DNA of 54,171 nucleotides from positions 1-54,171 of IMG/VR virus record IMGVR_UViG_3300008110_000118; one strand, given 5' to 3'. The stretch is from a virus. The position numbers and the translations under genes are program-made. How positions within the stretch are numbered: position 1 is the first letter of the stretch; every line of letters begins with the position of its first letter. This document shows, piece after piece, positions 4,635 to 9,963 of this stretch. The notes under the pieces were generated by a model. That model did not search any database, was not told where the DNA came from, and saw only the letters and a program-made list of their open reading frames with translations.

Positions 4635-4881
4635 CTGGATCAAGGTATCTAAAGTTTAATTCTTCAACAGAAATTATAACGTGTGGATAAAATTCTTTGA
4701 GATATTCCATTTCTTTTTCCGCATCACTATAATCATGATAGATTACTATCCGATCCAAATCCAAAATCTTTTGTTCGTTAAATGGAATAACAAGATAAAT
4801 TAGTTCTGTGCTAAAAAATGCACTATTTAACTTTTTTAATGGAAGAAATAGTGTTCTAAAAATTTTTTTAAACAATTTCAT
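4627..4881 (-). CDS. Hypothetical protein, 84 aa
   Basis: A basic, hydrophobic N-terminus (MKLFKKIFRTLFLPLKKLNS) could associate with membrane; the rest is an alpha/beta segment with IYHDYSDAEKEMEYLKEFYP. ATG 4881 overlaps the stop of the deformylase gene. No family recognised. Confidence 0.65.
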   Translation of the reverse strand: MKLFKKIFRTLFLPLKKLNSAFFSTELIYLVIPFNEQKILDLDRIVIYHDYSDAEKEMEYLKEFYPHVIISVEELNFRYLDPDE

Positions 4882-5309
4882 TGATCGGTAACAAATAATT
4901 TTCCAAAGAGATGATCTACTTCGTGTTGTATAATTCTAGCAGTTAATCCATCATACTTCAAGTGTTGATATCTTCCTTTAGTGTCTCTATATTTAACACG
5001 AATCCAAGAAGGTCTTAAAATATTTTCAAAAACTCCTGGAACACTTAAGCAACCTTCATTCATTAAAACAGTTTCTTTACTGAATTCAGTTATTTCTGGG
5101 TTGATCATTATTATAGGTGTTCCATTATTATCAACTATTATTATTTGCTTTAAAATTCCAACTTGAGGAGCAGCCAATCCAATTCCATTGTTTTCATACA
5201 TACAATCTACCATTCCCGCAAGTAGATTGCGAAGAGTGTCGTCAATATGTGCTACTCTTTTTGCCTTTTGTTTGAGAACTTTGTCTCCAATGGTTCTGAT
5301 GGTTAGCAT
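4878..5309 (-). CDS. def: Peptide deformylase
   Basis: Peptide deformylase removes the formyl group from the N-terminal methionine of new proteins. All three signature motifs are present: GIGLAAPQVG (residues 42-51), EGCLSVPG (85-92, with metal ligand Cys87) and QHEVDHLFG (128-136, with ligands His129 and His133 and catalytic Glu130). At 143 residues it is shorter than typical bacterial enzymes because the C-terminal helix is missing, as is usual for phage versions. GGGGAG lies a few bases before the start. Deformylases are known in T4-like cyanophages, where support of host chloroplast-type photosystem protein turnover has been proposed. Confidence 0.96.
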   Translation of the reverse strand: MLTIRTIGDKVLKQKAKRVAHIDDTLRNLLAGMVDCMYENNGIGLAAPQVGILKQIIIVDNNGTPIIMINPEITEFSKETVLMNEGCLSVPGVFENILRPSWIRVKYRDTKGRYQHLKYDGLTARIIQHEVDHLFGKLFVTDQ

Positions 5310-7851: not shown

Positions 7852-7907
7852 ATTATAGAGGCAGAACTGCCTCACTGCGGGTCCTCTGTGCCAGTTTGGA
7901 AGTTGGC
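7852..7907 (-). promoter_or_regulatory. Promoter module copy 4 with perfect palindromic operator-like element
   Basis: On the minus strand: GCCA (7904-7907), 10 bases, TGGCACA (7887-7893), 29 bases, TATAAT (7852-7857). In this copy the upstream element is a perfect inverted repeat, GTGCCA-N10-TGGCAC, as expected for a dimeric regulator. The spacer contains the hairpin GAGGCAGAACTGCCTC (7858-7873). The whole module lies within the 3' end of the methyltransferase frame. Confidence 0.7.
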
Positions 7908-8425
7908 ACATCCAGTTCCTCCATAATGATTTGTTTTGGTAGAAAGTTCCAGCAATAGTAACTACTGCTGAACGTGATCTTATCATTAGGACGACCATCA
8001 GGACTATGAAACTTCATCCGCTTATCAAACATCAGCAGTTGCAAATCCTTATCCTTAAACAACTGCTTGGGGGCACTATCATTCAACCAAGTGTTAGTCA
8101 TAATCAGAGCAAATGGTTTGTTGAAAGACAGTGCCCGCTCAAAGAACTTACGTTTGTTTGTGAATGGTGGATTAGAAATAATCACATCCCATTCAAAATC
8201 TGGAGTGTAAGTAAGGAAGTCTTGTCCAGTGGAAATATGAGTAGAAATAACAAGATTTTGTCTGCCAATTTGTTTAACAAACTCACTTTCTTTAGTATCA
8301 AATGGACACCAAACTTTTGCATCCTTAGGAATATACTTAAGAATTGGAGTTACACCGTAAAACGGAGTGTAACATTCGTCATTGTTACCCTCCGAGTACA
8401 TCAGTTTTCCACTATCAATCGTCAT
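7853..8425 (-). CDS. N6-adenine DNA methyltransferase-like protein
   Basis: The product carries DVIISNPPFTNK with the catalytic NPPF motif (residues 85-88) of N6-adenine methyltransferases, preceded by a motif-I-like VWCPFDTKESEFV (about 38-50). At 190 residues it is a minimal catalytic domain without a separate target-recognition domain. The start overlaps the end of a PD-(D/E)xK nuclease-like gene by 4 bases, so the two are probably co-translated. The last 15 or so codons are encoded by promoter module 4, with the stop formed by its TATAAT. DNA is the likely substrate; RNA cannot be excluded. Confidence 0.8.
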   Translation of the reverse strand: MTIDSGKLMYSEGNNDECYTPFYGVTPILKYIPKDAKVWCPFDTKESEFVKQIGRQNLVISTHISTGQDFLTYTPDFEWDVIISNPPFTNKRKFFERALSFNKPFALIMTNTWLNDSAPKQLFKDKDLQLLMFDKRMKFHSPDGRPNDKITFSSSYYCWNFLPKQIIMEELDVPTSKLAQRTRSEAVLPL

Positions 8426-8919
8426 ACAATGCGAGTCCCGAACTGTTGGATTTCTTTCTTGGTCAGACTACCAGAAAGGCGGGGATCTTTGTGCTTACCG
8501 TGAATCTTACGTTCCCAATCTTTCTTGAGTTTGGGAAGAAGAATCATAAGCACATCATCACCAGTGAGTTTCCATACTTCTGCTACTTTACCACCATCAT
8601 ATCGAGCAATGTAGTGGTTAGAGTATTTACCAAGTTTCTCTTCAATTAAATAACGTTCCTGCTCTTCCCAAGTATCCTGAACACTAATACCATTATACGT
8701 CCCATTGATAGAATTGGCAATCGTAGATTTATACTCACATTCACCATCTTCATCCACAGCATCAGCACCAGAATAAGTTTCTGCTACTTTATGACCAAGG
8801 ATACCAGCAAGATGAATCTCACGGGAACGAGCATAAGAGAATGGATCTCCCCAACCTTGCTCCTCACAAAGTTGATACATCTGCTCAAATAGTTCTTGAA
8901 ACTTTTGTTCAGGAGTCAT
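8422..8919 (-). CDS. Restriction-endonuclease-like protein (PD-(D/E)xK)
   Basis: Around residues 51-65 the protein reads GADAVDEDGECEYKS, which fits the PD-(D/E)xK nuclease core with an acidic residue at Asp53 or Asp56 and Glu62-x-Lys64. The flanking ISVQDTWEEQERYLIEEKL and HYIARYDGGKVAEVWKL, and the basic C-terminus, are like small type II restriction enzymes that I remember. It overlaps the adenine methyltransferase gene by 4 bases. The pair could form a restriction-modification system, or a host-DNA-degrading nuclease plus protection. Activity is inference. Confidence 0.7.
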   Translation of the reverse strand: MTPEQKFQELFEQMYQLCEEQGWGDPFSYARSREIHLAGILGHKVAETYSGADAVDEDGECEYKSTIANSINGTYNGISVQDTWEEQERYLIEEKLGKYSNHYIARYDGGKVAEVWKLTGDDVLMILLPKLKKDWERKIHGKHKDPRLSGSLTKKEIQQFGTRIV

Positions 8920-9409: not shown

Positions 9410-9817
9410 TTACTTATTCATTTGGAGCGTAGGCACAGGCATACCACCTTCGGTAGGAACATAAATGGTCACATTACCATTCTTGCTACCATCTTCAAGA
9501 CCAGTGATATACAGGTATTGGAGATACTCACGGTTGTCTTTCAGACTGTCACCAATAATCTGGTTTGCCTTGGCAACACCAGTAGCACGGATGATCTCAG
9601 CATCAGCAAGTTGTTGAGCACTATCTTTCTTTGCTTGTGCCTCAAGAACTGCTACTTGACGAGTATATTCTGCTTTTTGAAGTTCTGCTTTACCAGCAAG
9701 AGACTGCTGCCACACATTGTATTGGGGACCACCAATAAAGATGAGACCACCAATCACAATGGCAGCACCAATCATTACGACAGCGGCAGGTTCAAGAAAT
9801 CCGTTTTGTTTAGTCAT
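9410..9817 (-). CDS. Membrane-anchored prohibitin/SPFH-like protein
   Basis: The start is ATG 9817, with GGAGG 7 bases upstream. A membrane anchor (AAVVMIGAAIVIGGLIFIG, residues 12-31) is followed by a long Ala/Glu/Lys-rich helix and the segment LADAEIIRATGVAKANQII, the pattern of the C-terminal part of prohibitin-like SPFH proteins. The end reads VTIYVPTEGGMPVPTLQ. At 135 residues it lacks most of the SPFH beta domain. Such proteins assemble into rings on membranes; a role in modifying the host membrane is inference. Confidence 0.7.
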   Translation of the reverse strand: MTKQNGFLEPAAVVMIGAAIVIGGLIFIGGPQYNVWQQSLAGKAELQKAEYTRQVAVLEAQAKKDSAQQLADAEIIRATGVAKANQIIGDSLKDNREYLQYLYITGLEDGSKNGNVTIYVPTEGGMPVPTLQMNK

Positions 9818-9963
9818 CAGCAATCCTCCATTTTAAGAAAATCTGGATCTTTTTCCAGAGTAGATTTAAGCAGTTCATTCATAGTACGACGGGCACGATA
9901 GTTTTGGATAATATCCATTACACAATACCCAAAGGCAAATCCTGCCATCATTTTGACAATCAT
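9817..9963 (-). CDS. Hypothetical protein, 48 aa
   Basis: The frame runs from ATG 9963 to TGA 9817-9819, whose last base is shared with the next ATG. The product starts with a moderately hydrophobic helix (MIVKMMAGFAFGYCVMDII) followed by a basic then acidic tail. Its 3' end supplies the GGAGG for the prohibitin-like gene, which suggests coupled translation. Confidence 0.65.
   Translation of the reverse strand: MIVKMMAGFAFGYCVMDIIQNYRARRTMNELLKSTLEKDPDFLKMEDC

Follow-up and report, generated by a model that had tools for sequence, protein, structure and literature searches.

A PvuII-like nuclease and an adenine methyltransferase as a probable restriction-modification pair of T4-like cyanophages

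Two overlapping genes of a T4-like cyanophage probably encode a Type II restriction-modification (R-M) pair, which would consist of a nuclease with the predicted fold of the restriction enzyme PvuII and a small adenine methyltransferase. A preliminary description, made from the letters of the DNA, had proposed an R-M unit of a PD-(D/E)xK nuclease and an adenine methyltransferase, and this proposal is now strongly supported by the fold, the catalytic residues, the conserved coupling of the genes, purifying selection and the swapping of partners. The window, i.e. the whole stretch of DNA that was analysed, is the 54-kb virus record IMGVR_UViG_3300008110_000118 (54,171 nucleotides). It carries T4-like baseplate-hub/tail-lysozyme, tail, helicase and peptide deformylase genes (the last at 4878-5309, minus strand), and is regarded as a fragment of a T4-like cyanomyovirus because the relatives of the baseplate protein are nearly all cyanophage proteins. 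Both reading frames of the earlier proposal were recovered at their positions on the minus strand, including the overlap of 4 bases, and the following features can be distinguished:

7853..8425, minus strand: predicted minimal DNA methyltransferase of the N6-adenine type, 190 aa, PHROG 799 family, with no long target-recognition domain (phrog_799 match, AlphaFold2 model, Foldseek).
8162..8173, minus strand: NPPF catalytic motif (motif IV), methyltransferase residues 85-88 (invariant in a 32-sequence alignment).
8297..8311, minus strand: WCPFD, methyltransferase residues 39-43, at the position of AdoMet motif I (invariant in the 32-sequence alignment; a role suggested by position).
8422..8425, minus strand: ATGA, the 4-base overlap of the methyltransferase start codon and the nuclease stop codon (sequence).
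8422..8919, minus strand: predicted PvuII-like PD-(D/E)xK restriction endonuclease, 165 aa (phrog_35715 match, AlphaFold2 model, Foldseek).
8728..8730, minus strand: Lys64 codon, aligned with K70 of PvuII (invariance among homologues, hhalign).
8734..8736, minus strand: Glu62 codon, aligned with E68 of PvuII (invariance among homologues, hhalign).
8761..8763, minus strand: Asp53 codon, aligned with D58 of PvuII (invariance among homologues, hhalign to R.PvuII).

Translation of the nuclease and the methyltransferase is likely to be coupled through the ATGA overlap. A strong promoter-like match, TTGCCA-17-TATAAT (11/12), is present inside the nuclease gene (window 8692-8720, minus strand), some 270 bases before the start of the methyltransferase gene; 76 of 90 homologues retain its TATAAT, which is in large part accounted for by a Tyr-Asn coding constraint. 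A gene of the PHROG 11227 'protease' family is located near the pair (window 9410-9823, minus strand).

The 165-aa protein matches a phage protein family that is labelled in the database as of unknown function (phrog_35715, E 2.1e-84 in a PHROG profile search). Its match with the Pfam PvuII model (PF09225) is weak, with an E value of 0.0021 and a score of 18.5 bits that remains below the curated cut-off of 25; the homologue from phage P-TIM68 matches the same model with an E value of 0.0015. Searches of the PDB with sequences only, either single proteins or profiles, gave chance matches only, and neither the nuclease nor the methyltransferase had a match in NCBIfam. Since the sequence-only PDB searches were uninformative, a comparison of folds was required. 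An AlphaFold2 model of the nuclease, for which 36 sequences from the window and viral contigs were used as input, had a pLDDT of 93.1 and a pTM of 0.86, and its top 12 Foldseek matches in the PDB were all R.PvuII (E 1.7e-7 to 8.4e-6), followed by the N-terminal domain of Eco15I. Alignment of the nuclease profile by hhalign with an R.PvuII sequence that was checked against the PDB placed D53, E62 and K64 on D58, E68 and K70, an alignment that is weak when taken alone (E 0.0015, probability 17%). With the Pfam score below the cut-off and the hhalign result being weak, assignment to the PvuII family thus depends chiefly on the fold prediction.

The numbering of Asp53, Asp56 and Glu62-x-Lys64 in the preliminary description of GADAVDEDGECEYKS is correct, but only three of these four residues are invariant. 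D53, E62 and K64 are the same in 63 distinct nuclease homologues of 56-98% identity, so the Glu-x-Lys core, of which the absence from homologues had been named as a refutation of the proposal, is kept throughout. D56 is replaced by Asn in the nuclease of contigs L085 and L105, which is a 52-54% relative, and because of this variation D53 is considered the equivalent of D58 in PvuII. The 165-aa protein is predicted to have a restriction-enzyme fold with an intact active site, and a likely function, suggested by the model, can now be assigned to the uncharacterised phage protein family PHROG 35715. A single scan of IMG/VR gave 352 relatives of this nuclease, and the cultured phages that carry it are P-SSM2, P-SSM5 and P-TIM68. 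No plasmid homologue was found, and in a search of 84,980 genomes the nuclease was present in only one short MAG contig, where it is identical to that of the phage contig L105.

With R.PvuII, a Type IIP enzyme of PF09225 that cleaves CAG|CTG, the window nuclease shares the fold, the length (157 vs 165 aa), the catalytic residues and a match of the C-terminal segments HGTKI and FGTRI, although the sequence identity is only about 20-24%. The residues that we take to be in contact with the target in PvuII (D34, H84/H85 and N140/N141) are not conserved, since in the hhalign alignment D34 is opposite Tyr29, N140/N141 are opposite Lys144/Asp145, and the HHH segment is unmatched. This makes it likely that the target is different from that of PvuII. 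The PvuII system further includes an N4-cytosine methylase and a C-protein gene, whereas the partner in the window is an adenine-type enzyme with NPPF, and none of the genes adjoining the pair was recognised as a regulator.

The 190-aa methyltransferase matches phrog_799 with an E value of 9.2e-36 over positions 204-386 of the 458 in the profile; its Pfam matches (Eco57I, EcoRI-methylase) are weak, and PADLOC gave weak methyltransferase matches only. The segments YTP, WCPFD and NPPF are invariant in the alignment of 32 sequences. The AlphaFold2 model is of moderate quality (pLDDT 71), with M.TaqI as the second-best PDB match (Foldseek E 9.5e-5), and from the motif and the modelled fold we infer an N6-adenine type of enzyme. 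The Class I fold and the NPPF/NPPY motif are shared with the N6-adenine methyltransferases of the M.TaqI and M.EcoRI type, which differ from the window enzyme in that the latter has a length of 190 aa, WCPFD at the motif I position and no C-terminal target-recognition domain; no obvious domain of this kind was detected elsewhere in the protein either. The PHROG 799 profile has some 200 N-terminal positions more than the window methyltransferase. In five loci (L055, L059, L172, L111 and L157), a ParB/DUF6551-like protein of about 300-340 aa is encoded between the nuclease and the methyltransferase, or directly before a methyltransferase without nuclease, and in view of the extra N-terminal positions of PHROG 799 it may be a usual partner of the methyltransferase.

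The two genes are closely linked. The methyltransferase directly adjoins the nuclease in 91 of 100 nuclease-bearing IMG/VR contigs, which is far beyond chance, and the exact 4-base overlap is present in 58. It is located within 1.15 kb in seven further contigs, with an HNH gene (e.g. in L051) or the ParB/DUF6551-like gene in between in those that were examined, and is absent from two, which are fragments of 18 and 39 kb. The pair is retained in L105, a different phage with the 52-54% nuclease relative. In P-SSM2 and P-SSM5 the two genes are separated by about 6.6 kb, with the methyltransferase on the upstream side, and three other contigs have it 10-14 kb from a 55%-identical nuclease. About 27 types of upstream and 31 types of downstream neighbours were counted (some loci being the same contig counted twice), which suggests that the two genes form a portable cassette. 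Purifying selection acts on both, with median dN/dS values relative to the window of 0.081 for the nuclease and 0.060 for the methyltransferase. When new loci were collected via the methyltransferase, a PvuII-like nuclease was found in 48 of 73; the other 25 had no nuclease in the same locus, and four of these contigs have a PvuII-like one elsewhere or an IceA-type one.

Additional methyltransferase-like genes occur beside the pair in some phages. In P-TIM68 (L083, 6519-8549), the N6/N4 methyltransferase gp049 is encoded directly upstream of the pair; it was rejected as the true partner of the nuclease, as just one further locus has a relative in the adjoining upstream position. In L105 (1213-4964), two reading frames directly precede the pair, one for a helicase-methyltransferase-like protein of 1113 aa and one, of 157 aa, that is methyltransferase-like.

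The nuclease partner can also be exchanged. In contig L170 the same slot beside the methyltransferase is occupied by a PvuII-like nuclease of only 28% identity (hhalign E 3.9e-16; PHROG 35715 E 1.5e-15), and in L148 and L185 a nuclease of the IceA/NlaIII family (PF05315, E 1.6e-26) is encoded a few bases upstream of a methyltransferase that is 85-90% identical to that of the window. Another PHROG 799 methyltransferase, of 165 aa, overlaps in L340 (933-2056, minus strand) with a 209-aa PHROG 6892 gene in a nuclease-like slot; this 209-aa family, with 28 phage records that include P-RSM4, S-SSM5 and S-SM1, may be another family of restriction enzymes.

Linkage and exchange bear on two explanations other than an R-M pair. 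The methyltransferase could be an independent anti-restriction or regulatory enzyme directed against host restriction, with the nuclease as an unrelated enzyme for host DNA degradation or recombination that merely adjoins it. This would agree with the close methyltransferase homologues that occur without the nuclease, with the large distance between the genes in P-SSM2 and P-SSM5, and with the PHROG 799-type relatives in phages of Thermus, Fusobacterium, Flavobacterium and others, which have no annotated restriction gene next to them. Nevertheless, independence is improbable given a nuclease that nearly always has the methyltransferase as its neighbour, even though the surroundings are shuffled, that has the fold of a site-specific Type II enzyme, and that is one of three different nucleases, among them the IceA/NlaIII-type one, found as partners of this methyltransferase. 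Alternatively, the nuclease, either together with the methyltransferase or by itself, could be kept mainly as a selfish, homing-like element that spreads during co-infection by cutting phage genomes in which it is absent. The many genomic contexts, the presence or absence of single genes, the exchange of nucleases beside the methyltransferase and the HNH gene inserted between the pair in L051 are as expected for such an element, and this explanation overlaps with the form of the R-M explanation in which rivals are excluded. However, the nuclease has the PvuII fold and no known homing-endonuclease fold, it is a free-standing reading frame in every locus instead of being located in an intron or intein, and the methyltransferase is retained, although homing requires no such partner. 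A mainly selfish role is unlikely as well, if slightly less so than independence.

IceA1 is referred to as a CATG-recognising enzyme (PMC13340068, through its reference 17), and the IceA/NlaIII-type partner in L148 and L185 therefore predicted CATG as the target before the k-mer test. The likeness to the CATG systems NlaIII and IceA1-HpyIM is that an IceA-family nuclease directly precedes the same methyltransferase in these two contigs; the window nuclease differs in being PvuII-like instead of IceA-type, and CATG would be its target by inference. The observed/expected ratio of CATG was 0.09-0.55 (median 0.24) in 23 phages carrying the methyltransferase and 0.49-0.81 (median 0.76) in 19 isolate cyanomyoviruses without a methyltransferase match, a comparison that is confounded, since some contigs without the gene are depleted too, and limited in that the phages are non-independent and the carriers are mostly environmental contigs whereas the controls are isolates. 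The query used to select these controls does detect the copies in P-SSM2 and P-TIM68. CATG was the most discriminating of 136 tetramers between carriers and the 19 isolates (AUC 0.002), and P-SSM2 (0.40) and P-TIM68 (0.42) have the lowest two ratios among 21 marine isolates. The depletion is found in every flanking context, which points to a 4-base site; a comparison of palindromic 6-mers, in which counts were small, gave no clear candidate site. The methyltransferase is probably specific for CATG, and the chances that CATG is the site common to both enzymes are about even.

It is conceivable that the loss of CATG is imposed by CATG-cutting systems of hosts or the environment, with the methyltransferase serving for protection and the phage nuclease, whether part of an R-M pair or not, recognising another site. 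CATG is also depleted (0.12-0.37) in four environmental contigs that have no close methyltransferase (G030, G032, G034 and G035), and the most depleted group is that of the methyltransferase-only phages, so that rivals or hosts may be the source of the pressure. On the other hand, four close relatives of the window phage (L321, L325, L326 and L336) are not depleted (0.70-0.79), the two lowest ratios among the marine isolates belong to P-SSM2 and P-TIM68, and the IceA/NlaIII partner points to CATG independently. Such external pressure is rather doubtful, yet it is a stronger competitor than independence or selfishness. In a phylogeny-controlled comparison with close relatives, the contigs are mostly short and the depletion extends beyond the carriers, so the CATG evidence should be regarded as supportive only.

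If the two proteins indeed act as an R-M pair, the PvuII-fold nuclease would, by homology with PvuII, function as a dimer using Asp53, Glu62, Lys64 and a divalent metal, and the methyltransferase would mark the phage DNA at the site of the nuclease, probably CATG. Phage progeny whose DNA was synthesised while the methyltransferase was present would inject DNA that is marked already, and cutting by the nuclease in the following infection would be restricted to unmarked DNA, of which the main source may be either the host chromosome or a competitor phage without the methyltransferase. The preliminary description saw a difficulty in a methyltransferase that is expressed after the nuclease. This holds as far as gene order is concerned, but the upstream position of the methyltransferase in P-SSM2 and P-SSM5 implies that the order is not universal, and if virion DNA is pre-methylated, as we infer, the problem of a nuclease acting first would disappear.

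The view that R-M is unusual in a lytic phage is half right, since there are precedents. In P-SSM4, a lytic Prochlorococcus myovirus, an annotated 'restriction endonuclease II' gene overlaps a DNA methyltransferase gene (PSSM4_046/047), as here, although other protein families are involved (PHROG 18366 and 18657); the R-M idea thus has a precedent in cyanophages. A second methyltransferase gene follows this overlapping pair (L226, 40590-43188). Adjacent R-M genes are also encoded by chloroviruses and marseilleviruses, for which degradation of host DNA (PMC7019647) and exclusion of rival viruses (PMC7253447) have been proposed as roles; the likeness concerns the arrangement of virus-encoded genes and their role, whereas these are eukaryotic viruses. 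A functional parallel in T4-like phages is provided by denA and denB of T4, which cut unmodified host DNA and spare the hydroxymethyl-cytosine phage DNA (PMC2993671), with the difference that T4 relies on base substitution and the pair described here would rely on sequence-specific methylation. No description of a phage R-M pair of a PvuII-like nuclease and a PHROG 799 type methyltransferase was found in the open literature.

A tentative extension, which we consider possible but somewhat less than an even bet, is that a methyltransferase which is portable and has CATG as its fixed target pairs with unrelated CATG nucleases, either PvuII-like or NlaIII-like, that carriers of the pair destroy the DNA of the host or of rival phages, and that methyltransferase-only phages are immune to these carriers. 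If true, lytic phages would be engaged in an arms race by means of R-M that has left CATG under-represented across their genomes, and a PvuII-fold enzyme would have evolved towards a CATG target. The results suggest that lytic cyanophages wield R-M as a weapon, and do not merely evade it.
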